From: a virus | DNA length: 28,490 nucleotides | Reading direction: 5' to 3' (one strand) | Virus record (IMG/VR): IMGVR_UViG_3300025138_012327 | Span: 1-28,490 of that record | In this document: positions 4,481 through 22,941 of the stretch, piece by piece | Layout of the letters: every line of letters starts with the position of its first letter | Numbering within the stretch: the first letter of the stretch is position 1 | The notes under the pieces: generated by a model | What the model saw: only the letters and a program-made list of their open reading frames with translations | What the model was told of the DNA's origin: nothing | Databases searched by the model: none | Program-made: the position numbers and the translations under genes

Positions 4481-4488
4481 AAAGTCAT

Positions 4489-4511: not shown

Positions 4512-4542
4512 GGATTATTCAATAAAAGTTCGTATATTACGG
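4510..4542 (+). promoter_or_regulatory. Bacteroidota-type promoter for the chaperonin unit
   Basis: TTGG at 4510-4513, then exactly 19 nt, then TATATTACGG at 4533-4542, preceded by GTTCG. The same spacing and -7 sequence recur at five other intergenic sites in this window. Counting from the Bacteroidota model, the start point would be near 4544, giving about a 21-nt leader to the ATG at 4565. Confidence 0.65.
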
Positions 4543-4564
4543 TAAACAAAAAATAAAAAGTTAT

Positions 4565-4861: not shown

Positions 4862-5238
4862 ATTTAGAAGCATTAAGTAACGCAGTTATTGTAAAACCTC
4901 TTGAAGTAGAGGAAGAAACATATGGATCTATTATTGTACCTGATATAGGTAAAGATAAAAATGAGCATGGAGAAGTTGTAGCAGCTGGACCTGGATCAAA
5001 CACACACATGGGGCACTTCATTCCAAATCAGATTAAAGTTGGAGATATAGTTATTTTACCTACACAAGGTTTTACAAAATTAGAACATGAAGGTGAAGAA
5101 TATTATATTGGAGCTGAAAATCAAGTTTTAGCAAGAGTTAAAAAAGTAGTAGATGTAGAAAATATTTTATCTGTTACAGAACCTCTTGAAGAAAGTGAAT
5201 TAATAAGTGAAGAAGAATTTAATAAATTAGAAAAATAA
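4858..5238 (+). CDS. groES: GroES-like co-chaperonin (Cpn10) with C-terminal extension
   Basis: 126 residues. The Cpn10 fold is clear: SNAVIVKPLEVEEETYGSII at about residues 7-26 contains the mobile-loop region, followed by VPDIGKDKNEHGEVVAAGPG and later VGDIVILPTQG and YYIGAENQVLARV. The protein forms the seven-subunit lid of the GroEL folding cage. Usual length is about 95-100 residues; here an acidic tail of about 28 residues (VENILSVTEPLEESELISEE...) is added. T4 uses its own lid, gp31, with host GroEL, but this phage also carries a full GroEL just downstream. The start overlaps the previous stop by ATGA and GroEL begins 4 nt after the stop. Confidence 0.94.
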   Translation: MNLEALSNAVIVKPLEVEEETYGSIIVPDIGKDKNEHGEVVAAGPGSNTHMGHFIPNQIKVGDIVILPTQGFTKLEHEGEEYYIGAENQVLARVKKVVDVENILSVTEPLEESELISEEEFNKLEK

Positions 5239-5242
5239 AACA

Positions 5243-6868
5243 ATGAGTAAAATTATAGAGTTTGGCCCTGAAGGGAGAAAAAAATTAGTAAAGGGTATTG
5301 ACACATTAGCTGATGCTGTAGTATCTACTTTAGGACCTAATGGAAGAAATGTTGTAATTGAAAAAGAACATAATCAAGTACAATCAACTAAAGATGGTGT
5401 TACTGTCGCAAGACAGATTTCTTTAAAGGATCCAATAGAAAATTTAGGTGTTAATTTAGTAAGAGAAGCATCAATTAAAACAGCAGATAAAGCAGGTGAT
5501 GGAACAACAACATCTACTTTATTAGCTAGAGAAATGATTAAAGAAGGTCTTCAACATTTAACAAATGGGGCTAATGCTGTTGAAATTAAAAGAGGAATTG
5601 ACAAAGCTGTTAGTTCAATTGTAAAAAGTTTAAAATCTAATATTGCTGAAGATATATCTGAAGAAGGTCAATTAGAACAAGTAGCAACAATTTCAGCTAA
5701 TAATGACCCTGAAGTAGGAAAATTAATAGCTACAGCTATTCAAAAAGTAGGACATGAAGGAGTGGTACACATTGAAGAGAGCAAATCAGGAGATACCTAT
5801 CTTGAAACTGTTGAAGGAATGCAATTTGAAAGAGGTTATAAGTCTCATTATTTTGTAACTAACAATAATACAATGACTTGTACTTTAGAAGATGTTTCTA
5901 TTCTTATTGTTGATGAAAAACTAACTACAGTAAAAGCATTACTTCCTATTTTAGAAAATGTAGCGTCACAGAATAAATCTTTATTAATTATTGCTGAAGA
6001 TATTGATAATGAAGCTTTAGCTACATTAATTGTTAATAAAGGAAGAGGAACAATAAAAACTTGTGCTGTTAAAGCACCTGATTTTGGAGATAGAAGAAAA
6101 CTTATATTAGAAGATATTGCAACTTTAACAGGTGGTACAGTTTTTTCAAAAGATAAAGGTCATAAATGGGATAAATTCCAAATGGAATGGTTTGGTGAAG
6201 CTCGTACAGTTACTATTAATAAAGATAAAACAACTATTATTGATGGTAAAGGTGAAGAAGTAAAAGTAAATGATAGAATTGATAATTTAACAAATCAAGT
6301 TGAATCTGCCGAAAGTGATTTTGAAAGAGAACAATTACAAAATAGACTAGCTAGATTGTGTGGAGGAGTTTCTATTATTCATGTTGGAGGGTATACTGAA
6401 ACTGAAATGAATGAGAAAAAAGATAGAGTTGATGATGCCTTAAATGCAACAAAAGCAGCTATTGAAGAAGGTATTGTACCTGGGGGAGGAACAGCATTAT
6501 TATATGCTAGAGAATCTATAGATCAATGTAACATTGGAGCTGGTATAGTTTATAAAGCATGTGGTAAACCATTTGAACAAATTCTTATTAATGCTGGACA
6601 TGATTCAGTTGGAGCACAAATGCTAGGTAAATATCAATTAGTAGAATCTGGTAATGATAATTGGGCAGGTTACAATCTTAAAGAAGGAAAAGTTGTAAAT
6701 ATGAAGGAAGCAGGAATTATTGATCCAACTAAAGTAACTAGAGTTGCTATTGAAAATGCTGCAGCAGTAGCTGGCACAGTATTACTTACAGAATGTATAG
6801 TAGTAAATACACCAAAAGAAAATAAAGATCAATCTCAAATAGATCCTTCACAAATGATGGGAATGTAA
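5243..6868 (+). CDS. groEL: GroEL chaperonin (Cpn60), full length
   Basis: 541 residues against 548 in E. coli, complete over equatorial, intermediate and apical domains. ATP-site features are present: GPNGRNVVIE at 31-40, TKDGVTVA at 49-56 (the catalytic Asp equivalent to E. coli D52), and GDGTTTSTLLA at 86-95, with the nucleotide-binding Asp at 87 as in E. coli. Later landmarks are LIIAEDIDNEALATLIVNK (apical), DRVDDALNATKAAIEEG (the D398 region) and VPGGGTALL. The C-terminus is MMGM, a much reduced version of the usual GGM tail. It should form a two-ring ATP-driven folding chamber with the adjacent GroES. A complete phage GroEL is uncommon; the family in this phage appears intact with no missing catalytic residue. 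Confidence 0.97.
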   Translation: MSKIIEFGPEGRKKLVKGIDTLADAVVSTLGPNGRNVVIEKEHNQVQSTKDGVTVARQISLKDPIENLGVNLVREASIKTADKAGDGTTTSTLLAREMIKEGLQHLTNGANAVEIKRGIDKAVSSIVKSLKSNIAEDISEEGQLEQVATISANNDPEVGKLIATAIQKVGHEGVVHIEESKSGDTYLETVEGMQFERGYKSHYFVTNNNTMTCTLEDVSILIVDEKLTTVKALLPILENVASQNKSLLIIAEDIDNEALATLIVNKGRGTIKTCAVKAPDFGDRRKLILEDIATLTGGTVFSKDKGHKWDKFQMEWFGEARTVTINKDKTTIIDGKGEEVKVNDRIDNLTNQVESAESDFEREQLQNRLARLCGGVSIIHVGGYTETEMNEKKDRVDDALNATKAAIEEGIVPGGGTALLYARESIDQCNIGAGIVYKACGKPFEQILINAGHDSVGAQMLGKYQLVESGNDNWAGYNLKEGKVVNMKEAGIIDPTKVTRVAIENAAAVAGTVLLTECIVVNTPKENKDQSQIDPSQMMGM

Positions 6869-8753: not shown

Positions 8754-8983
8754 TAACACAAGTATATAATATGTTAAAATCATCTGCGGAAGCAGATAAA
8801 ACAAAAGCTTTACTAAGTTTAGAATTATTAACTAACCATGCTGCTGGTATTGGGGACCATTCAACAGGAGATTTTTATAAAAATGCTGAAGAAGCACTTA
8901 TAATGTTAGTTGATGCAGATGATAGGTTAGCTACATTAGAAAAATATTTTGCAAAACCATCAAAAGAAATAATTAATGAGTGA
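8750..8983 (+). CDS. Small conserved phage protein of unknown function
   Basis: 77 residues, predicted mostly helical. The central segment AGIGDHSTGDFYKNAEEALI, followed by DADDRLATLEKYF, looks conserved in type (I have the impression of similar proteins in marine phages), but no function is known to me. The start overlaps the gp62-like stop by ATGA and the end overlaps the DUF1599-like gene by 8 nt, so it is translated within the clamp-loader unit. Confidence 0.7.
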   Translation: MITQVYNMLKSSAEADKTKALLSLELLTNHAAGIGDHSTGDFYKNAEEALIMLVDADDRLATLEKYFAKPSKEIINE

Positions 8984-9470
8984 TATAATTAAAAAGTTCG
9001 AGGAACAACATGGTAATATGAGTGATAGAGAAATAATGAATGCCAAATATCCAAAAAATGAAAAACCAACATTTATCAATGATGGTAATCCTGTGCAAAA
9101 CAAAATGCTAGAAAGATCAGCTCCTCATTTGAATTCAACCACAGTAGAAATATTTGAACATGAATACCCAGAATTAGCAGAGGAATTTAAACAAATACAA
9201 AAAGAAATGTACAAAATGTTTGCAGCTAAGCATATGGATTATGGTTTAAATAATATTTCATTAGGTGGTGATTTAAACAATGCATCAGATAAAAAATTCT
9301 CACTTACAGGATTAGCCATTAGATTAACAGATAAAATTAGTCGTTTAAAAAATCTCTTACTTAATGGTAAAAATTTCGTTAAAGGAGAAGGTATGGAAGA
9401 TACATTTCTTGATATAGCTAATTATGGCATTATTGGTCTTTTAGTAGGACGAGATAAATGGAAAAAATAA
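8976..9470 (+). CDS. DUF1599-like protein, MazG-related nucleotide-modification domain
   Basis: 164 residues. The C-terminal half has the pattern of DUF1599 (also named nucleotide modification associated domain 1): AAKHMDYGLNNISLGGD, then LTGLAIRLTDKISRLKNLLL and EDTFLDIANYGIIGLLV. The RxxDKxxRL and EDTxxDxANYG motifs are the probable metal and nucleotide site. This family is an all-alpha relative of MazG and is often found near genes for modified DNA bases. The first 60 residues are a low-conservation leader. It is the second MazG-superfamily protein in the window (the other is at 136-633). Its substrate is unknown. Confidence 0.75.
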   Translation: MSDIIKKFEEQHGNMSDREIMNAKYPKNEKPTFINDGNPVQNKMLERSAPHLNSTTVEIFEHEYPELAEEFKQIQKEMYKMFAAKHMDYGLNNISLGGDLNNASDKKFSLTGLAIRLTDKISRLKNLLLNGKNFVKGEGMEDTFLDIANYGIIGLLVGRDKWKK

Positions 9471-9471
9471 A

Positions 9472-10428
9472 TTGGCAAAGAAAAAACTTCCTATAGTAGT
9501 AAGAGATATTAGGGAAAACCCTCCAACTCCCCTTAATTTTGCAATTGAGAAAAATATATCATACTCACAATTATCAATGTTTACTCAATGTCCTAAAAAA
9601 TGGGCATTACAGTATAGAGATGGTCATAAAATAAGTGAACAAAGTATTCATATGACTTTTGGAACAGCTTTACATGAGGTTTTACAACATTATTTAGATA
9701 TAATGTATGAAACAAGTGGAGCTGAAGCTGATAGAATTGATATTGAAGAATTATTTGAAGATACATTAAGAAAATGTTATGCTAATGATTATAAAAAAAA
9801 TAAGGGCAAGCATTTTTCATCACCTGAAGAGCTAAGAGAATTTTTTGAAGATGGTAAAGCTATTTTAAGTAACTTTAAAAAGAAAAAAGGTGGACATTTT
9901 AATAAAAAAGGATGGTATTTAGTAGGTTGTGAAGTGCCAATAGTTATTGCGCCTAATATGCGTATTAACCGCGTTAAATACATGGGTTATTTAGATATCG
10001 TAATGTACCATGAACCCACAAATACATTCAAGATAATCGACATAAAAACATCAACTAAGGGATGGGGTTCATATGCTAAAAAGGATGAATCTAAACAATT
10101 TCAGTTAGTGCTTTATAAATATTTCTTTAGTAAACAATATAATATACCAATTGAAAATATTGATATTGAATTTTTCATTGTTAGACGTAAAGTATATTTA
10201 GATGGTGAATATCCTCAAAAAAGAATACAAACATTTACTCCAGCCTCTGGAAAAAATAAAGTTAATAAAGCCACTAGAAATTTAGATGATTTTATAAATA
10301 AAGCTTTTAATTTGGATGGGACATATAAAGATACTATATTTGGGGCAAAACCAAGTAAATGGAATTGCACATTTTGCCCTTATAAAGAAAATATAGAGTT
10401 ATGCAATGCTGTTGGTAAGAATTTTTAA
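9472..10428 (+). CDS. PD-(D/E)XK nuclease, Cas4/RecB-like, probable iron-sulfur cluster
   Basis: 318 residues. The RecB/Cas4-like opening SYSQLSMFTQCPKKWALQY at about 30-48 is followed by FGTALHEVLQHYL (His 68). The catalytic core is MGYLDIVMYHEPTNTFKIID, then IKTS, then a QFQLVLYKYFF helix. Cysteine 40 and the C-terminal Cys 299, 302 and 311 (CX2CX8C) match the four-cysteine 4Fe-4S arrangement of Cas4/AddB nucleases. A DNA exonuclease for recombination or replication-end processing is likely. The start is TTG at 9472, 1 nt after the previous stop. The first in-frame ATG (residue 36) would cut away the conserved SxSQL segment, so TTG is preferred. Confidence 0.85.
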   Translation: MAKKKLPIVVRDIRENPPTPLNFAIEKNISYSQLSMFTQCPKKWALQYRDGHKISEQSIHMTFGTALHEVLQHYLDIMYETSGAEADRIDIEELFEDTLRKCYANDYKKNKGKHFSSPEELREFFEDGKAILSNFKKKKGGHFNKKGWYLVGCEVPIVIAPNMRINRVKYMGYLDIVMYHEPTNTFKIIDIKTSTKGWGSYAKKDESKQFQLVLYKYFFSKQYNIPIENIDIEFFIVRRKVYLDGEYPQKRIQTFTPASGKNKVNKATRNLDDFINKAFNLDGTYKDTIFGAKPSKWNCTFCPYKENIELCNAVGKNF

Positions 10429-10473: not shown

Positions 10474-10665
10474 ATGGCACAAAAAGAAATGACACTAACT
10501 AGTGTAAAAGTACAAAGTGGTTTGTTTGAAGATTTTAAAATTGAATGTGTAAAACGAAAGTTTAGTTTTCAAAAATTAGCAGATAGATCATTATTTTTAT
10601 ATTTAACTGATGAGGAATTTAGAAAAAAAATAAACTCACAAGTAAATATAGAATTAGAAAAATAA
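10474..10665 (+). CDS. Small ribbon-helix-helix DNA-binding protein
   Basis: 63 residues. MTLTSVKVQSGLFEDFKIEC at about 6-25 gives the single beta strand and first helix, and KFSFQKLADRSLFLYLTDEEF gives the second helix, the layout of Arc/MetJ-type ribbon-helix-helix regulators, which bind DNA as dimers through the strand. It is the first gene after the promoter candidate at 10412-10444 and heads the long sugar cassette, so it may repress its own unit. That role is inferred from position. No other domain is present. Confidence 0.6.
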   Translation: MAQKEMTLTSVKVQSGLFEDFKIECVKRKFSFQKLADRSLFLYLTDEEFRKKINSQVNIELEK

Positions 10666-10692
10666 ATATTAACATCAATAACAAGTTTTTAA

Positions 10693-12123
10693 ATGAAAGA
10701 AGGTTACATCAAAAAAGAAAATAGAAAAAAAATCTTACTCTTAACGGATGATATTAGGGTACATTCAGGAGTAGCTCAAATTGGTAGAGAGCTTGTAGAA
10801 AATACAGCTCATAGATACAACTGGGTACAATTAGCAGGAGCTATTAAACACCCAGAAACAGGGAAAATCCAAGATTTAAGTGAAGAGATTAACAAAAAAC
10901 GTAATATAAAAGACTCTTCAATTTTGTTATATCCTTGTGATGGGTATGGAGATGAAAAACTTATTAGATTAGTTATTGAAAGAGAAAAACCAGATGCAAT
11001 TCTTTTAATAACTGACCCTCGTTATTTTGAGTGGTTATTTAATATTGAAGACGAAATTAGGTCACAAATTCCAATTACATATTTAAATATTTGGGATGAT
11101 TTACCAGCTCCAATGTATAATCAAGAATTTTATGATTCATGTGATGGTTTATTTGGTATTTCTAAACAAACCAAAAATATTAATGAAATGGTTTTAGGAA
11201 GTAAAGCTAAAAATAAAGTAATTAAATATATTCCTCATGGGTTAGATCATAAAATATTTGCTCCCTTAGATAAAAATAATTCTGAATTATTAGACTTTAA
11301 AAGAATTTTCAAACCAAATAAAGAAACCAGTTTTACTTTATTATTTAATTCAAGAAATATTAGAAGAAAATGTATTCCTGATACTATTTTAGCATGGAAG
11401 TTATTTTTAGATACCTTATCAAAAAAAGAAAGAAACCAATGTCAATTAATTATGCATACCCAACCTGTGGACCAACATGGTACAGATCTTCCAGCAGTAA
11501 TTAATTTTTTATTCCCAGAAGAAGATCATAATATTATAATGTCTCATCAAAAACTGACAACCGAGCAGATGAATTTATTATATAATGTAGCTGATGGAGT
11601 AATATTATTATCATCTGCTGAAGGGTGGGGATTATCTCTTACAGAAGCTATGTTAACATCAACCCCTTTTATAGCTAATGTTACTGGAGGTATGCAAGAT
11701 CAAATGAGATTTGTAGATGAAAATGGGGATTGGTATACACCAAACCCAGATGTTCCATCAAATCATAAAAAAACATATACTAAATGTGGGGATTGGGCCT
11801 TACCTGTATATCCTTCAAATATTTCATTAGTTGGTTCTCCTAAAACACCTTACATTTATGATGATAGATGTAGTGCTGAAGATGCTGCTATAAAAATAAA
11901 AGAATTATATAGTATGGGAGATAAAGGAAGAAAATTAATTGGAAATAAAGGATTGAAATGGGCTTTAAGTGAAGAAGCAGGATTTACTGCTGAGGTAATG
12001 GCTAAAAGGTTTACTATTGCTTTAGAAGAAACATTAGAAAATTTTATTCCAAGGAAAAGATTTACTTTTACTAGTGATAGTAAAAAAAATGAAAAAGTTT
12101 TAAATCATAAATTAACATATTAA
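10693..12123 (+). CDS. Glycosyltransferase, GT4 type (GT-B fold)
   Basis: 476 residues. The N-terminal Rossmann half starts KILLLTDDIRVHSGVAQIGR, containing the sugar-acceptor-side loop. The C-terminal donor-binding half contains LLFNSRNIRRKC and the GT4 motif EGWGLSLTEAM at residues 310-320, whose Glu contacts the nucleotide sugar. It would move a sugar from an activated donor to an unknown acceptor with retention of configuration. It is followed after 1 nt by a second GT4 enzyme, so the pair may build consecutive linkages. No transmembrane segment is seen, so the enzyme is cytoplasmic. Donor and acceptor cannot be read from sequence. Confidence 0.88.
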   Translation: MKEGYIKKENRKKILLLTDDIRVHSGVAQIGRELVENTAHRYNWVQLAGAIKHPETGKIQDLSEEINKKRNIKDSSILLYPCDGYGDEKLIRLVIEREKPDAILLITDPRYFEWLFNIEDEIRSQIPITYLNIWDDLPAPMYNQEFYDSCDGLFGISKQTKNINEMVLGSKAKNKVIKYIPHGLDHKIFAPLDKNNSELLDFKRIFKPNKETSFTLLFNSRNIRRKCIPDTILAWKLFLDTLSKKERNQCQLIMHTQPVDQHGTDLPAVINFLFPEEDHNIIMSHQKLTTEQMNLLYNVADGVILLSSAEGWGLSLTEAMLTSTPFIANVTGGMQDQMRFVDENGDWYTPNPDVPSNHKKTYTKCGDWALPVYPSNISLVGSPKTPYIYDDRCSAEDAAIKIKELYSMGDKGRKLIGNKGLKWALSEEAGFTAEVMAKRFTIALEETLENFIPRKRFTFTSDSKKNEKVLNHKLTY

Positions 12124-12124
12124 T

Positions 12125-13420
12125 ATGAAAAATACATTTGTTGTAAGTTGTCCAATTGATACTTATAGTGGTTATGGAGCTAGAAGTAGAGATTTTGTAA
12201 AAGCACTAATTGAATCAAATAAATATGATGTACAAATTCTAGCTCAGAGATGGGGAAAATGTTCTGAAGGATTTATTAAAGATAATAAAGAATGGAAATT
12301 CTTATCAAAACATATAATTCCAAACTTAACAACTAAACCTGATTATTGGTGTCAAATTACAGTTCCTAATGAATTTCAATCTGTAGGATCATTTAATATA
12401 GGATTAACAGCTGGAATTGAAACTACTATATGTGATGGTAGTTGGATTGAAGGATGTAATAGAATGAATTTAATATTAACTTCTTCAAATCATTCTAAAA
12501 ATACTTTTTTAACATCTACTTTTTATAAAAATGGGGATGAAAAACAAGTAGTAGAATTAACAACTCCTATTGAAGTTTTAATGGAAGGTTTAAATTTAGA
12601 TGTTTATAAAATTACAAGTAAATTTATAAATAAAGATTTATACAACGAGGTAAATAGTATTCCTGAAGATTTTGCTTATCTGAATGTTGGGCATTGGATG
12701 CAGGGTGAGTTAGGAGAGGATAGAAAAAATATTGGTTTAACAATAAAAGCCTTTTATGAACTATTTAAAAATAGAAAAAACTCACCAGCATTAATTTTAA
12801 AAACATGCATTGTAAATGGGAGTATAATGGATAAAGCTGAAGTACTTAGAAGAATGAAAATTATTAGGGACTCAATTCAAGATGCTAAAACTCTTCCAAA
12901 AATATACTTATTACATGGTAGTTTTTCTGATTCTGAAATGAATGAATTATATAATCATCCTAAAGTAAAAGCAATGGTTAGTTTAACAAAAGGAGAAGGA
13001 TTTGGAAGACCTTTATTAGAATTTAGTTCTCTCGACAAACCCATTATAGCAACTAATTGGTCAGGACATATAGATTTTTTAAATGGGGAATATACATCTT
13101 TAATAGGAGGTGAATTAGCTCAAGTTCATAGTACAGCTGCAGTTAAAAATATGATTTTACCAGAATCACAATGGTTTAAACCTAAATTAGAAGATATTGG
13201 ATATGCTTTTAATAATGTGTGGGAAGATTATAATACTTGGGTCAAAAGATCTAAAAAACAAGGTAAATATTCAAGAGAAAATTATTCATATTTAGAAATG
13301 AAAAATCAAATTGAAAACATTTTTAATGAGCATCTTACAAAATTACCTAAAAAAATGGAATTAAATATTGGAGATATTAAGATGCCCAAAAAACCAAAAC
13401 CAACATTAAAAAAAGTATAA
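12125..13420 (+). CDS. Glycosyltransferase, GT4-like (GT-B fold)
   Basis: 431 residues. The start FVVSCPIDTYSGYGARSRDF gives the N-terminal glycine-rich loop. The C-terminal half has AMVSLTKGEGFGRPLLEFSS, with the GT4 Glu motif EGFGRPLLE at 291-299, and then KPIIATNWSGHIDFL. The basic, proline-rich C-terminus (KMPKKPKPTLKKV) is disordered in appearance. It is distinct from the preceding GT4 and is not a duplicate at the sequence level. It lies 1 nt after that gene and 1 nt before the zinc-ribbon gene. Confidence 0.85.
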   Translation: MKNTFVVSCPIDTYSGYGARSRDFVKALIESNKYDVQILAQRWGKCSEGFIKDNKEWKFLSKHIIPNLTTKPDYWCQITVPNEFQSVGSFNIGLTAGIETTICDGSWIEGCNRMNLILTSSNHSKNTFLTSTFYKNGDEKQVVELTTPIEVLMEGLNLDVYKITSKFINKDLYNEVNSIPEDFAYLNVGHWMQGELGEDRKNIGLTIKAFYELFKNRKNSPALILKTCIVNGSIMDKAEVLRRMKIIRDSIQDAKTLPKIYLLHGSFSDSEMNELYNHPKVKAMVSLTKGEGFGRPLLEFSSLDKPIIATNWSGHIDFLNGEYTSLIGGELAQVHSTAAVKNMILPESQWFKPKLEDIGYAFNNVWEDYNTWVKRSKKQGKYSRENYSYLEMKNQIENIFNEHLTKLPKKMELNIGDIKMPKKPKPTLKKV

Positions 13421-13421
13421 A

Positions 13422-13919
13422 ATGGTAGAACAAGATAAATTAATAAAATGTAATAGGTGTGGAGGAGATGCATGCTATCACCAAGAAATAAATGGTGTAG
13501 AATTATACTCATGTTATGGGTGTGGTTTTCAAACATCATCTGTAATGAAAAAAGATGAAAAATTTTTTGAAGAACAAATGGAAATACTTCCTGAATTATA
13601 TAAGGCTTTATTAGGAGAAGATGATGAAGGAATGATTTGGATGCCTCAAACAGTTAATCTACCTCAAAACGGAATGGTATTTGCGTCATCAGCTAAAGAT
13701 CATGGTGTTGAAAATGAAACACCTTCTCAAAATAATTATGAATGGGCGGCTGTAAAAGCAATTGAAATATCCGAAGAGGATAAAGAAAAATACCCAATCC
13801 CTCATAAAAAAGGAGAATATTATGAGTGGAGAATGGATATGACTACTGAAAAAAGATTTCCCCACAATGATTTTGTTGAAGCCTTAGATTACATAGGGGT
13901 ATTTGGAGAAGAAAAATAG
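13422..13919 (+). CDS. Zinc-ribbon protein of unknown function
   Basis: 165 residues. An N-terminal zinc ribbon is formed by KCNRCGG at about 9-15 and SCYGCGF at about 30-36 (two CxxC knuckles). The rest is acidic, with WMPQTVNLPQNGMVF near 73-87 and a C-terminal FVEALDYIGVFGEE. This two-part layout resembles a protein conserved among marine T4-like phages, but no activity is known to me. It sits between glycosyltransferase genes and starts 1 nt after the upstream stop. It might bind nucleic acid or protein through the ribbon. Confidence 0.7.
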   Translation: MVEQDKLIKCNRCGGDACYHQEINGVELYSCYGCGFQTSSVMKKDEKFFEEQMEILPELYKALLGEDDEGMIWMPQTVNLPQNGMVFASSAKDHGVENETPSQNNYEWAAVKAIEISEEDKEKYPIPHKKGEYYEWRMDMTTEKRFPHNDFVEALDYIGVFGEEK

Positions 13920-13922
13920 AGT

Positions 13923-14546
13923 ATGAGAATAAGTTATGCAATAACAGTATGTAATGAATTTGTAGAAATTCAAAAACTCATTCCTTTTTTACTTAAAAAT
14001 AAAAGAGTTGAGGATGAAATTGTTATACTTTATGATATCAATAATGGTCATGAAGGTGTAGAACAATTTTTAAGAGCTAAATCAATTAATGGTGAATTTG
14101 CTTGGATACCTGGTGAATTCGAAGGACATTTTGCTGATTGGAAAAATAAATTAACTTCATTTTGTAGTGGTGATTGGATATTTCAAATTGATGCTGATGA
14201 AATACCCCACAAAGATTTAATTGAATACTTACCAGAAATAATTTTAAGTAATATAGATAATGAAGTAATTAGAGTTCCAAGAGTTAATACTGTATATGGA
14301 TTAACTGAAGAATACTCTAAAAAATGGGGGTGGAGAGTTAATGAAAAAGGCTGGGTTAATTGGCCTGATTTTCAATGGAGAATTTGGAAAAATCATCCAA
14401 AAATTAAGTGGGTAAATAAAGTACATGAAGTACTAGAAGGTTATGATTTTTATTCTGATTTACATGAAGACGAAAGATTTTCACTTTATCACCCTAAAGA
14501 TATAGAAAGACAAGTAAAGCAGAACAAATATTATGAAAGTTTATAG
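13923..14546 (+). CDS. Glycosyltransferase, GT2-like (GT-A fold)
   Basis: 207 residues. The N-terminal strand ISYAITVCNEFVEIQKLIPF and the metal-binding DxD motif in FQIDADEIPHKDL (Asp 90, Asp 92) are typical of GT2 enzymes. Later WPDFQWRIWKNHPKIKWVNK, then VHE, provides the usual aromatic segment and His-Glu of the acceptor side. At 207 residues it is shorter than many GT2 enzymes and lacks membrane helices, so it is a cytosolic transferase. Its last 14 nt overlap the GT10-like gene. Donor sugar unknown. Confidence 0.82.
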   Translation: MRISYAITVCNEFVEIQKLIPFLLKNKRVEDEIVILYDINNGHEGVEQFLRAKSINGEFAWIPGEFEGHFADWKNKLTSFCSGDWIFQIDADEIPHKDLIEYLPEIILSNIDNEVIRVPRVNTVYGLTEEYSKKWGWRVNEKGWVNWPDFQWRIWKNHPKIKWVNKVHEVLEGYDFYSDLHEDERFSLYHPKDIERQVKQNKYYESL

Positions 14547-15432
14547 TAACTATCTACCTATTGAAAGATACGAACAATTTATTTTAAGTAAAAAAAAGTA
14601 TAAAAATATTCCTATTACAATATTTAATGACTATTTTACTAAAAATAATTGGAAAGAATTATCTGACAATCCAATTAATATTATAATACTAAATGAACCA
14701 AACCAACTATTTGGTCATCATTCTCAAATACAACAATATTACAATAACTATAATTTAATTTTAACTTGGGGTCAAGACGTAGTTGATAATTGTTCTAATG
14801 CAAAGTTATTTATTCATGGTGAAACCAATTTAGATAAAAATTATATTAATTCTTTTAACTCAAACCCAAAAAGAAAATTTGAAGTAACTTTTTTAAGTGG
14901 AGTATTAAAACTAATAGAAGGTCATAAATTAAGACATAAAATTTTAGATATAGAATCTAAAGTGAAAATTCCAAATAAATTTTGGAAAGTATTAGATGAT
15001 TTTAATCACGAAACTGGAAATAGACCAGGTTATAGAGACCCAGGGTGTGATGTAATTACTAAAGAAGGAACACCTATTGAGGGGGAAGGTAAAAAACAAG
15101 TATGGAATAGAAATTCTATGTTTCATATAGCAGTAGAAAATTCTAAAAATTTAAATTACTATACAGATAAAATTGTAGATTGCTTTGCAACCAAAACTAT
15201 TCCAATATATTGGGGTGCTCCTAATATAGAAGATTACTTTAATAAAGATGGTATAATTACTTTTAAAGATGAAAATGATTTAGTTGAAATATTAAATAAT
15301 TTAACAGAAAAAGATTATCAAAATAGATTGGAAGCTGTAGAAGAAAATCATATATTAGCGTTAGAAAATGGATTCTTTTTTCAAAGATTAGAAAATACTT
15401 TAGATCAAATTATAAAATTAAATAACTTATGA
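14533..15432 (+). CDS. GT10-like fucosyltransferase
   Basis: 299 residues. The C-terminal domain contains the alpha-1,3-fucosyltransferase signature: FHIAVENSKNLNYYTDKIVD at 197-216, then FATKTIPIYWGAPNIEDYF. In GT10 enzymes the EN...TEK and PIYWG segments bind GDP-fucose; here TDK replaces TEK. The N-terminal half is diverged and carries the acceptor side. The product would be a fucosyl (or related GDP-sugar) linkage on an unknown acceptor. A GDP-fucose-synthase-like gene at 19350-20255 in the same cassette fits this. Retargeting to another GDP-sugar is possible. Confidence 0.75.
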   Translation: MKVYSNYLPIERYEQFILSKKKYKNIPITIFNDYFTKNNWKELSDNPINIIILNEPNQLFGHHSQIQQYYNNYNLILTWGQDVVDNCSNAKLFIHGETNLDKNYINSFNSNPKRKFEVTFLSGVLKLIEGHKLRHKILDIESKVKIPNKFWKVLDDFNHETGNRPGYRDPGCDVITKEGTPIEGEGKKQVWNRNSMFHIAVENSKNLNYYTDKIVDCFATKTIPIYWGAPNIEDYFNKDGIITFKDENDLVEILNNLTEKDYQNRLEAVEENHILALENGFFFQRLENTLDQIIKLNNL

Positions 15433-15827
15433 GTAGAAAATATTTACCCACATTATCAGAATTAGTTGACAGACTTTCAATAGCTCAATTAAAAGAAGTA
15501 TTCATAACCGACCATAAAAATGAATATGCTCAAGAAATAAAAGATATAACCCATGATATAGATTTAATTTTAAATGATGAAAATATCAAATTAAGTGGTA
15601 AAGATATTAGAGCAATAGTTGTCCTTTCTCAAATGAATCTTCATATTTGGCATAATGAAACTAAGTATCGTGCTGGAACTGGTAATGGTAATTTAGGGTT
15701 AACCCATGGATTAAATGGTATTAGGAATACTGCTAAAAATATGATTCAAAAAAATAGTGGTGGGAGAAAAGATTACAAAATTGATTGCATAGCAGCAGAA
15801 TTTAAAGATTGGGAGATATCATGGTAA
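15429..15827 (+). CDS. Small conserved protein of unknown function in sugar cassette
   Basis: 132 residues, helical. YLPTLSELVDRLSIAQLKEV at 5-24 and MNLHIWHNETKYRAG, then GGRKDYKIDCIAAEF near the end are the readable landmarks. The ELVDRLSI...L pattern recalls DUF4254 proteins that occur in polysaccharide gene clusters, but I hold that only weakly. The start overlaps the GT10-like gene by 4 nt and its end overlaps the kinase-like gene by 7 nt. Its constant company with sugar genes suggests an accessory role there. Confidence 0.6.
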   Translation: MSRKYLPTLSELVDRLSIAQLKEVFITDHKNEYAQEIKDITHDIDLILNDENIKLSGKDIRAIVVLSQMNLHIWHNETKYRAGTGNGNLGLTHGLNGIRNTAKNMIQKNSGGRKDYKIDCIAAEFKDWEISW

Positions 15828-16576
15828 AAGTATTAGTAATAGGAGATAGTTGTTTAGATGAATACATTTATTGTACAATAGATAGATTTTGCCCAGATGC
15901 ACCTGTACCTATCTTAAAACCAGAATCATATGTTTCAACTGAAGGTATGGCCGGTAATGTAGCTGATAATTTAAGAGCACTAGGAGCTGAAGTTGATTTG
16001 ATTTCAAATGCTAATAGAATTAAAAAAACAAGATATGTTGATGAAAGAACAAATCATATGTTTGTTAGAATTGATGAAGGTGAAGATGATATATTTCCTA
16101 TAGCTAAAAAAACATTAGAAAATATTGAATGGAATAAATATGATGCTGTTGTTATAAGTGATTATTGTAAAGGGTTTCTTACAGAAGATGAAATAGCTTA
16201 TATTTCCTATCAACATACAAATACTTTTTTAGATACTAAAAAATTATTAGGTTCTTGGGTTGAAAATATTACATTTATAAAAATTAATGATGTAGAACAT
16301 AAATTTAATTTAGATAATCTTTATTCAATTAATATGATTGAAAAAATGATTATTACTAGAGGATCTAATGGTGCAGAATATTGCAAAACTATATATCCTG
16401 TAGATAAAGTAGATGTTAGAGATACCAGCGGAGCTGGTGATACATTTATGGCTGGTTTAGTATACGCATATATAACCGAAAATAACGTAGAAAATGCGAT
16501 TAAATTCGCAAATAAATGTTCTACTCAAGTAGTACAGAAAAAAGGTACTGCAAAAATAAACAAAAAAGAATTATGA
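15821..16576 (+). CDS. PfkB-family sugar kinase, HldE kinase-domain-like, shortened
   Basis: 251 residues. The opening VKVLVIGDSCLDEYIYCTID, then RFCPDAPVP, then EGMAGNVADNLRALGAEVDL is that of heptose-7-phosphate kinase (HldE/RfaE N-terminal domain). DTSGAGDTF at 201-209 holds the catalytic Asp 207. HldE kinase domains are usually about 310 residues; here the part between LISNAN and KKTRYVDERTNHMFVRIDE is roughly 40 residues short. There is no cytidylyl/adenylyltransferase domain attached. It probably phosphorylates a sugar 7- or 1-position, but the substrate may have changed. I use ATG 15821, whose product begins at the conserved strand, over an upstream TTG at 15809. Confidence 0.8.
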   Translation: MVKVLVIGDSCLDEYIYCTIDRFCPDAPVPILKPESYVSTEGMAGNVADNLRALGAEVDLISNANRIKKTRYVDERTNHMFVRIDEGEDDIFPIAKKTLENIEWNKYDAVVISDYCKGFLTEDEIAYISYQHTNTFLDTKKLLGSWVENITFIKINDVEHKFNLDNLYSINMIEKMIITRGSNGAEYCKTIYPVDKVDVRDTSGAGDTFMAGLVYAYITENNVENAIKFANKCSTQVVQKKGTAKINKKEL

Positions 16577-17109
16577 AATATCAATTTAGTAAAGTATTAA
16601 AAGATGTAGCAATTATCACACCTGATATACATTATGATTATAGGGGTGAATACATTGAAACTTGGAATAGTGAAAACTATAAAATATTTGATCATTTAGT
16701 TAATAACAATAAACCTATAATATTTAAACAAGATGATATTAGCACATCAGTAAAACATACATTAAGAGGATTACATGGTGATGATAAAACATGGAAATTA
16801 GTTTCATGTGTTTATGGTTCATTGTTACAAGTAGTGGTTGATATGAGAGAGTCAAGTGATACTTACTTAAAATATGATATGTTCAGCATTAATGATAAGA
16901 ATAGGAACCAAATATTAGTACCACCTGGTTTTGCTAATGGTCATTTAGTAATGAGTGACTTTGGAGTATTTAGTTATAAACAATCAACACTATATACAGG
17001 TGCATCAACTCAATTTACAGTTAGGTGGGATGATAAAAAAATAAATATTCCTTGGCCTATTAATAATCCTATATTATCTTCCAGGGATAACAACGCAAAA
17101 TCACTATGA
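16573..17109 (+). CDS. dTDP-sugar 3,5-epimerase-like protein (RmlC family)
   Basis: 178 residues, a cupin of the RmlC family (about 180-185 usual). TLRGLHGDDKTWKLVSCVYG at 63-82 carries the catalytic His 68. VVVDMRESSDTYLKYD matches the VDxRxxSxT block, and ILVPPGFANGHLV at 114-126 is the second cupin block. The standard motif there is GFAHGF; here it is GFANGH, with the His moved by two positions. WDDKKINIPWPINNPILSSRD at the end is canonical in type. It probably epimerises or isomerises a nucleotide-bound keto sugar. I start it at ATG 16573 (ATGA overlap) and not at 16516, which lies inside the kinase gene. Confidence 0.82.
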   Translation: MKYQFSKVLKDVAIITPDIHYDYRGEYIETWNSENYKIFDHLVNNNKPIIFKQDDISTSVKHTLRGLHGDDKTWKLVSCVYGSLLQVVVDMRESSDTYLKYDMFSINDKNRNQILVPPGFANGHLVMSDFGVFSYKQSTLYTGASTQFTVRWDDKKINIPWPINNPILSSRDNNAKSL

Positions 17110-18047
17110 AAGAAAACGTACTAATAACAGGGGGAGCTGGTTATCTAGGGTCAGTATTAGTTGAAGTATTATTAGATAACGGTTATAATGTAACTGTATT
17201 TGATAATTTGATGTATAAACAAACATCATTATTACATTTATGTGATGATAAAAGCTTTAATTTTATTAAAGGTGATGTTACTAATAAAAAAGAATTTCTA
17301 CCCCAAATTATTAATAATGATGTAATTATTCCTTTAGCTGCTATAGTAGGAGCTCCGGCTTGTGATTCTAATGAAGAATTAGCAACAGCTATTAATTATA
17401 GTCAAATTGAATTTATTGTAGATAATTTAAGAAAAGATCAAAAATTAATTATGCCTAATACTAACAGCCAATATGGTAGTTCAGAAAACATAATTACTGA
17501 GGATTCCCCATTCAACCCTTTATCCCATTATGCTATTACAAAATGTAAAGCCGAAGAATATATAATGGATTGGGGTAATGGTATTTGTTTAAGGTTAGCT
17601 ACTGTGTTTGGTTCATCTCCTAGAATGCGTACTGATTTACTAGTAAATGATTTTGTTTATAAAACTTTAACAGAGGGATGTTTAGTATTATTTCAATCAC
17701 ATTTTAAAAGAAATTATATACACGTAAGAGATATTGCGTATACTTTTCTCCATTGTATTGAAAATTATGATAAATTAAATGGTGAAGTATTTAATGTAGG
17801 GTTATCTAACGCTAATTTAAATAAAAAAGAATTAGCTGAAACTATTAAAAAATATTTTCCAAAGTTAGTAATTATTGAAAATGAATTTTCAACTGATATA
17901 GATAATAGAAATTATATAGTATCTAATGATAAATTAGAAGCAACAGGATGGAAGCCAAGATACACTATTGAAGATGGTATTGATGAATTAATTTCAGCAT
18001 ACAAAATGGTTATTACAGATAATAATAAAAAATATACAAATTTATGA
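17106..18047 (+). CDS. NAD-dependent nucleotide-sugar epimerase/dehydratase (extended SDR)
   Basis: 313 residues. The dinucleotide loop VLITGGAGYLGSVLVEVLL is at about 4-22, PLAAIVGAPACDSN near 76-89, and the catalytic pair is in SHYAITKCKAEEYI (YxxxK). NSQYGSS provides the Ser/Gln region, and FKRNYIHVRDIAYTFLHCIE is the usual substrate-side segment. It uses NAD(P) to rearrange a nucleotide sugar, likely acting on the same substrate line as the RmlC-like neighbour. Overlaps are ATGA at the start and 4 nt with the methyltransferase at the end. Substrate cannot be stated. Confidence 0.87.
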   Translation: MKENVLITGGAGYLGSVLVEVLLDNGYNVTVFDNLMYKQTSLLHLCDDKSFNFIKGDVTNKKEFLPQIINNDVIIPLAAIVGAPACDSNEELATAINYSQIEFIVDNLRKDQKLIMPNTNSQYGSSENIITEDSPFNPLSHYAITKCKAEEYIMDWGNGICLRLATVFGSSPRMRTDLLVNDFVYKTLTEGCLVLFQSHFKRNYIHVRDIAYTFLHCIENYDKLNGEVFNVGLSNANLNKKELAETIKKYFPKLVIIENEFSTDIDNRNYIVSNDKLEATGWKPRYTIEDGIDELISAYKMVITDNNKKYTNL

Positions 18048-18691
18048 TAACCCTTAAAACTAATAACCCTATTGCAGTTAATTCCCCTGATCATATTTTT
18101 CCTTGGGGTACTAAAAGGGATAATTTTACAAATGATGGTTTTATAGATGAAACAATAGATTTTTGGAAACAAAGAGGGAAAGATAAATTTAATTTTTTAG
18201 ATTTAGGATGTTCTGGTGGTCAATTAGTTATAGATTATATTGATAGAGGACATTTAGGCATAGGATTAGAAGGAAGTAATTATAGTGTAATTAATAAAAG
18301 AGCAAATTGGCCAAAATATCATAATAAAAATTTATTTACTTGTGATGTTACAAAAAAATATGAATTATTTGAGAATAATAAAAAATTAAAATTTGATGTT
18401 ATTACAGCATGGGAAGTTATAGAACATATTAGCCCAAATGATCAAAAATCATTTTTTAAATATATAAATGACAATTTAAATAGTGGAGGATTTTTTTGTG
18501 GTTCTATTTCTATTAGAGAAGAAATTATAGAAGGTCATGCTTTACATCAAACTGTTTGGGATGAAAATACTTGGTATAAAAATTTTCCTGATATTTTAAA
18601 AGATACTACTTTGAACTTATATCAATATCCATTTACTAATAAAGTAAGAAATTTAGATGATTCTTTTTATATACTGTTATTAAAATCCTAA
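18044..18691 (+). CDS. Class I SAM-dependent methyltransferase
   Basis: 215 residues. The SAM loop FNFLDLGCSGGQLVIDYIDR is at about 46-65, an acidic residue follows in GIGLEGSNYS, and VITAWEVIEHISPNDQ, then LNSGGFFCGSI are motifs of methyltransferase families acting on sugars and small molecules. The N-terminal part (NSPDHIFPWGTKRDNFTNDG) resembles a substrate-side lid. Its place inside the sugar cassette suggests O- or N-methylation of the sugar or glycan. No DNA-methyltransferase motif (DPPY/NPPY) is seen, so a base methylase is unlikely. Confidence 0.82.
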   Translation: MITLKTNNPIAVNSPDHIFPWGTKRDNFTNDGFIDETIDFWKQRGKDKFNFLDLGCSGGQLVIDYIDRGHLGIGLEGSNYSVINKRANWPKYHNKNLFTCDVTKKYELFENNKKLKFDVITAWEVIEHISPNDQKSFFKYINDNLNSGGFFCGSISIREEIIEGHALHQTVWDENTWYKNFPDILKDTTLNLYQYPFTNKVRNLDDSFYILLLKS

Positions 18692-18695
18692 AAAA

Positions 18696-19343
18696 GTGAA
18701 AAATATTGTAAACAATTTATTAAATGATTCTCCACAAAAATTTGTAGACTTAATCATGACTTATCCTCATTACACAACAAAATATGGAAGTTTAAAACAT
18801 GCAGCTCAAAAATCAAACAGAGAAGGATTGTGGTTAGAATTTGGTTCATTTAGTGGGGAAACATTAAAGTTACTAACACATTTAACTAGTCAAAAGTTAT
18901 ATGGGTTTGACTCGTGGGAGGGTTTACCTGAAGATTGGAATGATGAAAACCCTAAAGGAAAATTTAATACAGAAGGAAAACCTCCATTTGAACCCCTTCC
19001 TCAAATGGAATTAGTTAAAGGATGGTTTAATGATACAATACCCCAATTTATTAAAAACCAGGATAGTATTGATTTGGACTTTTTACACTTAGATGCTGAT
19101 TTATACTCATCAACAAAGTGTGTTTTTGATAATTTTAAACCTTATTTTAAGGGTAAAGTAATATTAACTTTTGATGAATTTTTTGGATATGATGGTTGGG
19201 AAAATCATGAATATAAAGCATTTAAAGAGTTTATTTCAGATATAAAAGATAATATTAAAAATTTAAAAATTTTATCATATTCATATAATGGTGTTAACGT
19301 TTTAGGGTATCATCCCACGGCTTTTGAAATTAACTTTAAATAA
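18696..19343 (+). CDS. TylF-like SAM-dependent methyltransferase
   Basis: 215 residues starting at GTG 18696. GLWLEFGSFSGETLKLLTH at about 48-66 is the SAM loop, followed by YGFDSWEGLPEDWN and LDFLHLDADLYSSTKCVFDN, then VILTFDEFFGYDGWENHE. The FDSWEGLP and HLDADLYSST segments mark the TylF/macrocin-O-methyltransferase family, which methylates sugar hydroxyls and depends on a metal bound by the Asp residues. The GTG start lies just after the previous stop; the next Met is at about residue 22 and would lose the N-terminal helix. It could add a methyl cap to the phage-made glycan. Confidence 0.82.
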   Translation: MKNIVNNLLNDSPQKFVDLIMTYPHYTTKYGSLKHAAQKSNREGLWLEFGSFSGETLKLLTHLTSQKLYGFDSWEGLPEDWNDENPKGKFNTEGKPPFEPLPQMELVKGWFNDTIPQFIKNQDSIDLDFLHLDADLYSSTKCVFDNFKPYFKGKVILTFDEFFGYDGWENHEYKAFKEFISDIKDNIKNLKILSYSYNGVNVLGYHPTAFEINFK

Positions 19344-19349
19344 AATAGC

Positions 19350-20255
19350 ATGAAAATTTTAATAACTGGATCTACTGGATTTGTAGGTAAACATTTAATA
19401 AAGACCCTAAAAATGGGTCATTTAAATTTTGAGGAAGATCATGAAATAACTGAAATAAATTCTACTAACTTTAGTAGTATGTGGTCATTAGAAAAAAATT
19501 CTTATGATGTAATTATTCATTTAGCTGTAAAAACAGCAGCAGGAGGATATTGCCAACAACATCCAGGAGAACAATGGATAGTTAATTCTAGTATTAATAC
19601 TGATATGTTAGCATATTGGACTCAATATCAACAAAGAGCAACAATGATTACCTTTGGTTCATCATGTAGTTATAGTAATAATGAAGTTAAATCAGAAGAT
19701 AATTATTTAAAAGGAGAAGTTGAAAAAGGATATGAAGTATATGGAAATGTTAAACGTAACTTGTTAATAGGATTAAATGCATTAAAGTCAGAATTTCAAA
19801 TGGATTCTTATTATTTAATTCCTTCTGTATTTTATGGTCCTGAATATGATTTAGAGGATAAACATTTTATTTTTGATCTAATTAGAAAAATAGTAAGTGC
19901 AAAAAATGGTGGAGATGAAGTAGTTTTATGGGGTGACGGAAGTCAAGAAAGAGAATTAATTTATATAGATGATGCTGTAGATATTATTATAGCATGTATA
20001 AATAATGCAGATGCTCCTAAAATGCTTAACTTATCGTCAGGTAAAACACATACTCTTAAAGAATATGCTCAAACAATATGTGATATAGTAGATTATGATT
20101 ATAATTTAATTAAATGGGATACTAATGCCTTTGTAGGATCTAAAAGCAAAAAATTAGTTAATACTCATTTAAAAAAATATCCATTCACCTCATTAAAAAA
20201 GGGTTTAAAAAATACAATTAAATATTATGAAAATAGCATCGGTAGTAGTAAATAG
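19350..20255 (+). CDS. fcl-like: GDP-L-fucose synthase-like NADPH epimerase/reductase
   Basis: 301 residues. MKILITGSTGFVGKHLI is the dinucleotide loop. FGSSCSYSN at about 102-110 aligns with the GSSCIYP of E. coli GDP-fucose synthase, keeping the catalytic Ser and Cys; YGNVK at 131-135 is the YxxxK pair. YGPEYDLEDKHFIFDLIRK keeps the catalytic His before the hydrophobic stretch, and VVLWGDGSQERELIYIDDAV matches the VWGSGxxxREFxxVDD block. The enzyme turns GDP-4-keto-6-deoxymannose into GDP-fucose. The GDP-mannose 4,6-dehydratase that precedes it in the pathway is not in this window, so that step would be the host's or elsewhere in the phage. It pairs with the GT10-like gene. Confidence 0.82.
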   Translation: MKILITGSTGFVGKHLIKTLKMGHLNFEEDHEITEINSTNFSSMWSLEKNSYDVIIHLAVKTAAGGYCQQHPGEQWIVNSSINTDMLAYWTQYQQRATMITFGSSCSYSNNEVKSEDNYLKGEVEKGYEVYGNVKRNLLIGLNALKSEFQMDSYYLIPSVFYGPEYDLEDKHFIFDLIRKIVSAKNGGDEVVLWGDGSQERELIYIDDAVDIIIACINNADAPKMLNLSSGKTHTLKEYAQTICDIVDYDYNLIKWDTNAFVGSKSKKLVNTHLKKYPFTSLKKGLKNTIKYYENSIGSSK

Positions 20256-21099
20256 AAATGATGGTTATAAAGATTTTAAAAGGGGGATAATTCATTTTAA
20301 ATTAATGGATGAAACTTTTGATGAAGTTAATTATGTTGATTGGAATTCTTCAAAAGGATCATTTATATGGGAAATTGAAAATAAAATTCCTACTAAAGGT
20401 AAAATCAGACACTATTGCATCCCTCCTAGTGTAGTTAGGCAAATTATAATGGATAAAAATGCCCAAAAATGTAATGAAGCATTAAGTAGAAATATAGCGA
20501 TTAGGAGAAGTAATGCAGATTGGATTGTATCTACAAACATAGATATTATCCCACCAACAAGAAGAGAATTAAAATCATTAATTAAAAATTTAAATAAAAA
20601 TACATTTTATACAATATCAAGAAGAGAAGCACCTAAAGATATAATATATAATACTCCTGTTAACAAATTACGTGAATCACTTTCAACTATACCAGCAAGA
20701 CATTTTCCAGCTAAGGTCACACAAAATGATAACTATAGTTTAATTAATTGTTGTGGGGATTTTCAGATAGCTCATAGAGATGTTTGGGATAAAATAAAAG
20801 GATTTGAAGAAGAGATGATATATGCTTGTTTTGTAGATACAAATGTACAGAAAAAAGCAGTATTAAATGGTTATAATTTAGAAGTATTATATGAACCAGC
20901 TTTATATCACATGGAACATGGGGCCTATTTTACTAAAGAAGATGGCACTAGAGTATTAGATTCTAATAATAAAGGCTCATTTAAAGGTGATAATAAAGCT
21001 TATAATGATGCCCACAAATGGGTTGAAAATTATGTTAAATCAAATAACAATAATAACTGGGGGCTTAATAATGTTAATATAGAAGTAGAAGTAATCTAA
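20227..21099 (+). CDS. Glycosyltransferase, GT2-like (GT-A fold)
   Basis: 290 residues. It begins IASVVVNRNDGYKDFKRGII, has an acidic metal site in STNIDIIPPTRREL, and ends the core with FEEEMIYACFVDTNVQKKAV followed by EPALYHMEHG. The DTNVQKKA...G pattern and the late His-x-x-His-like MEHG are typical of GT-A enzymes (the usual GxDxxxxxR segment). It overlaps the previous gene by 29 nt, an unusually long overlap here. The C-terminus is Asn-rich (KSNNNNNWGLNN). It is the last transferase of the cassette; donor sugar unknown. Confidence 0.75.
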   Translation: MKIASVVVNRNDGYKDFKRGIIHFKLMDETFDEVNYVDWNSSKGSFIWEIENKIPTKGKIRHYCIPPSVVRQIIMDKNAQKCNEALSRNIAIRRSNADWIVSTNIDIIPPTRRELKSLIKNLNKNTFYTISRREAPKDIIYNTPVNKLRESLSTIPARHFPAKVTQNDNYSLINCCGDFQIAHRDVWDKIKGFEEEMIYACFVDTNVQKKAVLNGYNLEVLYEPALYHMEHGAYFTKEDGTRVLDSNNKGSFKGDNKAYNDAHKWVENYVKSNNNNNWGLNNVNIEVEVI

Positions 21100-22314: not shown

Positions 22315-22941
22315 ATGCCTTTACCAAAACCATTGAGTAAAGAATTAATTGTAGGAGCTATGGGTAAAACCAAATCTAATAGAGCAGCTGCTAGATACTT
22401 AAATGTTTCCTACGTACATTATAAAAGATGGGCAAAGTTATATGAAAGTAAAACTCATGACAACCTATTTGAACAACATAAAAATCAATCAGGTAAAGGT
22501 ATTCCTAAATTTTTAAAAAGTAATGGTAAAGAACCAGCATTAATTGATATAATAGAAGGAAGAGTTGATGCATCATCATTTTCTCCTGATAAACTTAAAT
22601 ATAGACTTATAACTGAGGGGTATTTATTAGAAGAATGTAGTTCTTGTGGATTTCAAGAACGTAGAGTTTTAGATTATAAAATGCCTTTACTTCTCCATTT
22701 TAAAGATAATAATAAAAAAAATTATAGAAAGGAGAATATAGAATTACTTTGTTATAACCATTTTTTTCTTACTGTGGGGAATATTTTCTCAGATAAACAA
22801 GTTAAAGGTATTGAAGACCATAAACCTGTAAATCAAGGAGATGTAGAATGGGAATTAGATGACTATCAAAGACAAAGATTAATTGAATTAGGTTTAGAAA
22901 AAGAAGATGATGATGGTTTAGATTTAATATCCTATAAATGA
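22315..22941 (+). CDS. HTH plus HNH-like protein, possible DNA-binding nuclease or regulator
   Basis: 208 residues with two readable parts. Residues 20-42 (KSNRAAARYLNVSYVHYKRW) form a helix-turn-helix of the type seen in phage regulators. Residues 105-155 form a treble-clef/HNH-like module: ECSSCGF (Cys 108, 111), LLLHFKDNNKKNY (His 128) and ENIELLCYNHFF (Cys 146, His 149). HNH nucleases normally have CxxC...HxxD/N...CxxC; here the last Cys is His. The zinc-structural frame looks intact; whether it cuts DNA is uncertain. KNQSGKGIPKFLKSNG between the parts could bind DNA. The C-terminus is acidic. It overlaps the next small gene by ATGA. Confidence 0.6.
   Translation: MPLPKPLSKELIVGAMGKTKSNRAAARYLNVSYVHYKRWAKLYESKTHDNLFEQHKNQSGKGIPKFLKSNGKEPALIDIIEGRVDASSFSPDKLKYRLITEGYLLEECSSCGFQERRVLDYKMPLLLHFKDNNKKNYRKENIELLCYNHFFLTVGNIFSDKQVKGIEDHKPVNQGDVEWELDDYQRQRLIELGLEKEDDDGLDLISYK

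Follow-up and report, generated by a model that had tools for sequence, protein, structure and literature searches.

A sugar locus with a constant glycosyltransferase core and an exchangeable slot, and its predicted modified heptose, in a T4-like phage record

The IMG/VR virus record IMGVR_UViG_3300025138_012327 (positions 1 to 28,490; this whole 28,490-base stretch is called the window here) carries a cassette of sugar genes at positions 10474-21099. Comparison with related viruses revealed a constant core, which includes two glycosyltransferases (GTs), and behind it a slot in which related phages carry different sets of sugar genes. Gene content, gene order, homology and modular replacement were observed directly, and the substrate, the product, the contribution of the host and the acceptor of the glycan are proposed in what follows. 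As judged from sequence, the slot of the window most likely yields an O-methylated, epimerised nucleoside diphosphate (NDP)-heptose and not a deoxy-hexose. The full explanation that we favour joins a core-plus-cargo glycan locus, a modified heptose and a glycan placed on virion proteins, and it is given a probability of about 0.42.

The cassette genes are packed head to tail on the + strand, with intergenic gaps of -61 to +6 bases between 10693 and 21099, and they comprise five glycosyltransferases, a PfkB kinase, an RmlC-like epimerase, two sugar enzymes of the short-chain dehydrogenase/reductase (SDR) type and two methyltransferases. These are the gene classes, in the close packing, that an earlier reading of the window (the original prediction) had named; one of the two SDRs is the GDP-fucose-synthase-like enzyme, and the last of the five transferases is a weak match. 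Its views that the set exceeds a T4-style glucosylation system and that O-methylation is involved were borne out as well. Two genes had been overlooked, those of a zinc-ribbon protein (13422-13919) and a 132-amino-acid (aa) protein (15429-15827), as had the fact that 10474-10665 is a small non-enzyme open reading frame (ORF).

Core and exchangeable slot

A total of 160 related viral loci were fetched, and the two core transferases, GT4a and GT4b, were found together in 125 of them, at a distance of 60 bases or less in 104. The core consists of a PD-(D/E)XK nuclease, a small ORF, GT4a and GT4b, and it is common to about 100 viral loci and to the Flavobacterium phage immuto. The nuclease gene (9472-10428; PF12705, 8e-23) is the left border of the locus and immediately precedes GT4a in 98 of the 104 loci where this could be tested. 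The 63-aa protein encoded by the small ORF has no Pfam match, is kept in 83 of 104 loci, and by eye possibly resembles a ribbon-helix-helix regulator. GT4a (10693-12123; PF00534, 1.8e-7) is a retaining GT-B glycosyltransferase with the motif EGWGLSLTE and invariant E310 and E318, and GT4b (12125-13420; phrog_2170, 1.2e-22) is a second GT-B enzyme, whose structural model has a predicted local distance difference test score (pLDDT) of 89. Two semi-core genes follow: that of the zinc-ribbon protein, which has invariant C10, C18 and C34 and follows GT4b in 80 of 101 loci, and that of GT2a (13923-14546; PF00535, 4.5e-5), a GT-A glycosyltransferase present in 83 of 101 loci. The right border is formed by a protein at 22315-22941 (+ strand), which is retained downstream of the slot with 53-91% identity in 10 of 11 loci that bear the sugar module of the window; the immuto gene at the same place is annotated as an HNH endonuclease.

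The cargo between these borders is highly variable. When the ORFs downstream of the core were clustered at 35% identity over 129 loci, 985 ORFs fell into 305 clusters. In contrast to the close relative L082, the locus L083 combines a core that is 75-92% identical with wholly different cargo. Another marine virus has the same core locus (L153:12287-21158) with a nonulosonic-acid set of the PseB/PseF/PseH/NeuB type, and in immuto the slot is filled with aminotransferases, among other genes. A distant version of the core was found in Microcystis phage Mel-JY01, and Rhodothermus phage RM378 (L206:7001-9744) has a GT4a homologue with an adjacent GT4b-like gene and no sugar cargo. The cassette is not a chance arrangement, since viral contigs that are independent of one another show its gene order again. 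The G+C content at third codon positions is 0.13 in the cassette and 0.13-0.14 in the flanks, and this match gives no sign of recent foreign origin.

In 11 loci the module found in the window is kept in the order RmlC-like epimerase, SDR, methylase (where present), GDP-fucose-synthase-like SDR and GT2b. The methylase position is occupied by different families or is empty; the window has both methyltransferases, and the second of them is not present in the closest relatives (L082, L004, L009, L010 and L016). Among the 32 loci that were fetched with GT4b and have at least 7 kb downstream, the C4-dehydrogenase was found in 5 and the epimerase in 5, so the heptose-type cargo is a minority type.

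The 132-aa protein is a very highly conserved member of the cargo, with 460 viral relatives, the best 80 of which are 74-86% identical; half of the loci had been fetched with this protein as bait, which inflates its frequency. Its gene is linked to the C4-dehydrogenase (p=0.002) and to the epimerase (p=0.002), and its association with the kinase was not significant among loci sampled by GT4b (p=0.34). The protein has many invariant polar residues, a predicted four-helix bundle (model pLDDT 77) and a weak resemblance to DUF4254/DUF7783, and a fold search gave no PDB match at E<=0.001. Outside the cassette, the gene stands alone on chromosomes of marine Flavobacteriales, next to genes of the thrS-infC-rplT type, and is also present in Neomarinimicrobiota (loci L178, L196, L173, L190 and L198).

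The sugar predicted for the slot

In the proposed mechanism, the two constant GT4 enzymes, usually with a GT2 enzyme, would build or anchor the first sugars, and the slot after the core would supply the outer sugar, which in the window would be a modified NDP-heptose, probably guanosine diphosphate (GDP)-linked. A heptose-7-phosphate kinase would commit the sedoheptulose-derived heptose, and host enzymes would complete NDP-D-glycero-D-manno-heptose. The SDR at 17106 would then oxidise C4, the RmlC-like enzyme would epimerise C3 or C3/C5, the GDP-fucose-synthase-like SDR would reduce C4, and the methyltransferases MT1 and MT2 would O-methylate the sugar, which the GT10-like and GT2b enzymes would transfer. 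We consider the heptose type of the sugar quite probable; the gene content suggests one or two O-methyl groups and no deoxy sugar.

Solved structures are a better guide to the chemistry than family names. The SDR at 17106-18047 matched 6vo6/6vo8 at 1.2e-105 (356 bits), compared with 69 bits for the next-best solved structure; 6vo6 is the GDP-heptose C4-dehydrogenase Cj1427 of Campylobacter jejuni, and the SDR is of this type. 4,6-dehydratases carry a T-D-E motif, and this SDR reads TNSQYG at the corresponding position. The RmlC-like epimerase (16573-17109; motif LRGLH; probably starting at 16573, the listed ORF start of 16516 being too early) scored 135-146 bits against eight GDP-4-keto-heptose epimerase entries, including 8dcl, 8dak, 7m14, 8dco and 8db5, and at most 100 bits against the dTDP-type RmlC enzymes of dTDP-rhamnose synthesis, which identifies it as the GDP-4-keto-heptose 3-/3,5-epimerase type. 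The kinase is a short PfkB protein (15821-16576; probably starting at 15821, with the listed start of 15809 too early) of the HldE-N/heptose-7-phosphate-kinase-like kind; it has a GAGD motif and matched TIGR02198 at 3e-39, below the cut-off, and the solved heptose-7-phosphate kinase 4e84 at 2.5e-12.

The remaining genes of the slot are consistent with a modified and transferred sugar. MT1 (18044-18691; PF13489, 4.1e-9), a probable sugar O-methyltransferase, occupies the variable methylase position, and MT2 (18696-19343; PF13578, 7.8e-7; TylF, 5e-6) is of the TylF/Methyltransf_24 type. The second SDR (19350-20255) matched the GDP-L-fucose synthase 7ll6 at 2.4e-18, and it is called GDP-fucose-synthase-like because its family score of 107.5 bits is far under the curated cut-off of 500; it is predicted from sequence to be a C4-reductase and possibly an epimerase too, and its match to the Campylobacter reductase 7anh was weak (7.3e-8). 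The GT10-like transferase (14533-15432; PF00852, 3.2e-8) resembles the H. pylori alpha-1,3-fucosyltransferase 2nzw (3.1e-9), and GT10 donors are GDP-sugars. GT2b (20227-21099), a weak GT2-like transferase (PF00535, E=0.0099, below the cut-off), closes the module and is the final module gene in 11 of 11 loci that carry it. Among the relatives, L040 and L021 have an additional HldE-C-like nucleotidyltransferase, and the slot of L009 holds a GT9 'heptosyltransferase'.

The original prediction had proposed a deoxy sugar, and a glycan of the rhamnose or fucose type, made from an NDP-4-keto-6-deoxy sugar of the host, would indeed be suggested by the RmlC family of the epimerase, by the GDP-fucose-synthase family of the second SDR, with its catalytic cysteine/histidine pair, and by the GT10 family as that of fucosyltransferases. 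We regard such a product as improbable, because there is no 4,6-dehydratase in the slot and because the SDR at 17106 and the RmlC-like enzyme are far closer to GDP-heptose enzymes than to hexose enzymes; in addition, the heptose-7-phosphate-kinase-like gene belongs to the module.

Some observations count against the heptose. An isomerase GmhA (PF13580) and a sugar nucleotidyltransferase (PF00483, searched for as the guanosyltransferase) were each found in 0 of 13 related records, and these early steps would therefore fall to the host. The second SDR keeps the GSSC cysteine, the YxxxK motif and the aligned histidine of the fucose synthase, and may therefore act on a hexose.

The published capsular GDP-heptose pathway of C. 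jejuni uses a C4-dehydrogenase (Cj1427), a C3/C5-epimerase (Cj1430) and a C4-reductase (Cj1428) (PMC10680097, PMC7949155). Homologues of all three modifying enzymes, the reductase as a candidate, are present together with methylases in the module of the window, which appears to encode a C4-dehydrogenase of the Cj1427 type and a C3 or C3/C5 epimerase. In contrast to C. jejuni, the kinase is of the PfkB type, the reductase is nearer to GDP-fucose synthase, and the cassette has no isomerase, phosphatase, guanosyltransferase or capsule export genes.

Acceptor of the glycan

Virion protein is the acceptor somewhat favoured over the host envelope, with a likelihood a little short of even. It is favoured because the core GTs are nearest to chlorovirus B736L, and because neither lipid-pathway genes nor an acceptor chemistry for DNA were found in the relatives. 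B736L (3oy2) is the nearest solved structure to GT4a (5.6e-13) and GT4b by sequence, and to GT4b also by fold (2.6e-15), and in chloroviruses the capsid is glycosylated by enzymes that the virus itself encodes, which act in the cytoplasm and include methylases (PMC4691112, PMC9614988). If the same holds here, virion proteins would receive the glycan while still in the cytoplasm, and each phage lineage would have its own surface 'serotype'.

Several points speak against virion protein. We know of no glycosylated virion protein in the phage of the window or in any relative, the window is a fragment, as are most relatives, and the neighbours of the locus are replication genes and not structural genes. 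The host could supply the lipid carrier and the flippase, and envelope targeting would then explain the same genes. The acceptor of B736L is itself unproven, and the enzyme may not act on capsid protein (PMC9614988). A Maf-like protein O-glycosyltransferase, which would favour protein targets, was considered at L153:20295-21158 and dropped, as it had no Pfam or NCBIfam match.

Addition of the sugars in the cytoplasm to nascent lipopolysaccharide (LPS) or capsule of the host, on host-made lipid carriers, is a serious rival that we hold to be less probable than the virion; it would block superinfecting phages or alter grazing. This is the published reading of P-SSM2-type clusters, which show the same enzyme classes and polymorphism (PMC7824862), and the sugar type is that of a capsule sugar in Campylobacter (PMC10680097). 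The NeuB/PseI-type and WecE-type cargo of relatives is likewise typical for surface polysaccharides. On the other hand, an initiating sugar-phosphate transferase or flippase was not found in the related records (PF02397 in 0 of 24, PF01943 in 0 of 24, PF00953 in 0 of 17; positive controls were detected), an investment of 7-10 genes would be made by seemingly virulent phages, and a constant core GT pair in phages of Flavobacterium, Microcystis and Rhodothermus could work only if envelopes as unlike as these all presented a suitable acceptor. The original prediction was thus right that a membrane translocase is absent. Its step from this absence to virion or DNA is weak and leaves room for the host envelope, because the sugars of LPS and capsule, too, are joined to lipid carriers in the cytoplasm, and it is the host that makes these carriers and flips them.

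Phage DNA, which the original prediction had also favoured, is a very improbable acceptor. Glycosylated DNA of the T4 or RB69 kind, perhaps with the sugar on 7-deazaguanine, would fit the position of the locus among replication genes, the DUF1599 'nucleotide modification associated' protein encoded at 8976-9470, just ahead of the nuclease gene, and the joint occurrence of the core GTs and a deazaguanine operon in this lineage. However, dCMP hydroxymethylase was not found (PF00303 had matches in 3 of 24 related records, and all of these proteins are thymidylate synthases that carry PFNI), TET/JBP (PF12851) exceeded the cut-off in 0 of 24, and some phages with the GT core, the complete Mel-JY01 among them, have neither DpdA nor QueC. 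The core GTs matched GT4 models and phrog_2170 and not the AGT/BGT families, and AGT/BGT were not among the 50 best GT4b fold matches listed. T4-style glucosylation was rejected on these grounds.

The deazaguanine operon itself abuts the left end of the window. Positions 1-123 (+ strand) hold the last 40 codons of folE (GTP cyclohydrolase I), frame 1 reading KHQGAAMVTTKASGVFRDNDNLSRKEFFDSLKINNGGHNI up to the stop, and this fragment is nearly identical to the FolE C-terminus of the close relative L201. In L201 (11567-16927), DpdA, QueC, QueD, QueE and FolE stand immediately upstream of the region that corresponds to the window, as a complete-looking 7-deazaguanine DNA-modification operon in which FolE is the last gene; the rest of this preQ0/DpdA operon lies outside the window. 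The eight largest contigs that have a close GT4 core contain DpdA and QueC, and so does immuto. The DpdA/Que/FolE set is reported to give dPreQ0 (PMC6884629), a sugar-free product that offers no sugar acceptor on DNA.

In a bolder form, which we think rather unlikely, the locus would be a virion serotype locus of virulent phages, the counterpart of a bacterial O-antigen locus. The conserved GT4 pair would prime a virion protein, and the exchangeable slot, with heptose, nonulosonic-acid, aminosugar or other sets, would vary the surface glycan; a still remoter version is glycosylation of 7-deazaguanine DNA.

Setting, known systems and meaning

The window belongs to a marine T4-like phage and encodes a family-B polymerase, a clamp loader, GroES/GroEL, Hsp20, the PD-(D/E)XK nuclease and, among the replication genes, a protein in the clamp position. 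The polymerase (626-3237) is encoded by two ORFs that overlap, 626-2308 and 2305-3237, with the split falling between its SLYPS and DTDS motifs; L201 has the same split and Mel-JY01 a single ORF. Genes for an Hsp20-like protein, GroES and GroEL are clustered at 4061-6868 and are phage-encoded. A T4-type late promoter ahead of the cassette was rejected, as TATAAATA was found inside genes only, and a Bacteroidota-type promoter at position 10311 was a single match, by our estimate near chance level in such A+T-rich sequence.

Loci of this kind are already known, and the nearest are the P-SSM2-type sugar-production/capsule-modification clusters of cyanophages, which are proposed to act on host polysaccharide (Iyer et al. 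2021, PMC7824862). Both have several SDR epimerases, a cupin-fold sugar epimerase, a PfkB kinase, many GTs and O-methylases, and in both the content is polymorphic between related viruses. Unlike those clusters, the slot of the window stands at a fixed place behind the conserved PD-(D/E)XK-GT4a-GT4b core, Flavobacterium is the host of the isolated relative that has this core, the sugar module belongs to the GDP-heptose C4-dehydrogenase type, and the HIGH nucleotidyltransferase is not in the window, being present in L021 and L040. What appears to be new is that a fixed core is combined with an exchangeable slot in this phage group, that the sugar is assigned as a heptose, and that the locus is separate from the DNA-modification operon.

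The isolated relative immuto (vB_FspM_immuto, MW353175) has the same arrangement of PD-(D/E)XK, small ORF, GT4a (52%), GT4b (53%), zinc-ribbon, GT2, cargo and HNH, whereas its cargo consists of WecE aminotransferases, an acetyltransferase-type gene, an epimerase and other transferases, with no heptose module. The papers found on immuto give no account of its glycosyltransferases. The chloroviruses (NY-2A B736L, PBCV-1 A064R) share virus-encoded cytoplasmic GTs and O-methylation with the window; they are eukaryotic viruses, the similarity is confined to the fold level and short-domain sequence, and their virion glycan is proven, whereas for the phage of the window a virion glycan is a proposal. 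T4 and RB69 also encode sugar transfer beside replication genes, but the pathway to a hydroxymethylated base was not found in the relatives of the window. The initiating transferase and flippase of a Wzx/Wzy- or ABC-type surface polysaccharide locus were likewise not found in them.

Phage sugar clusters are usually catalogued gene by gene and presumed to target host LPS. The present comparison separates a core that stays constant from a slot with exchangeable content and predicts a specific sugar, namely a methylated modified heptose. Each of these points is testable, and one cultured relative, phage immuto, allows the whole locus to be tested. The window also points to a widespread and very conserved partner, the 132-aa protein. 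As the sugar genes in the slot differ between related phages, every lineage may make a sugar coat of its own. Should the glycan sit on the virion, lytic phages would differ in surface serotype much as bacteria do in their O-antigens, which would bear on adsorption, on grazing and on how phages compete with one another in the sea.

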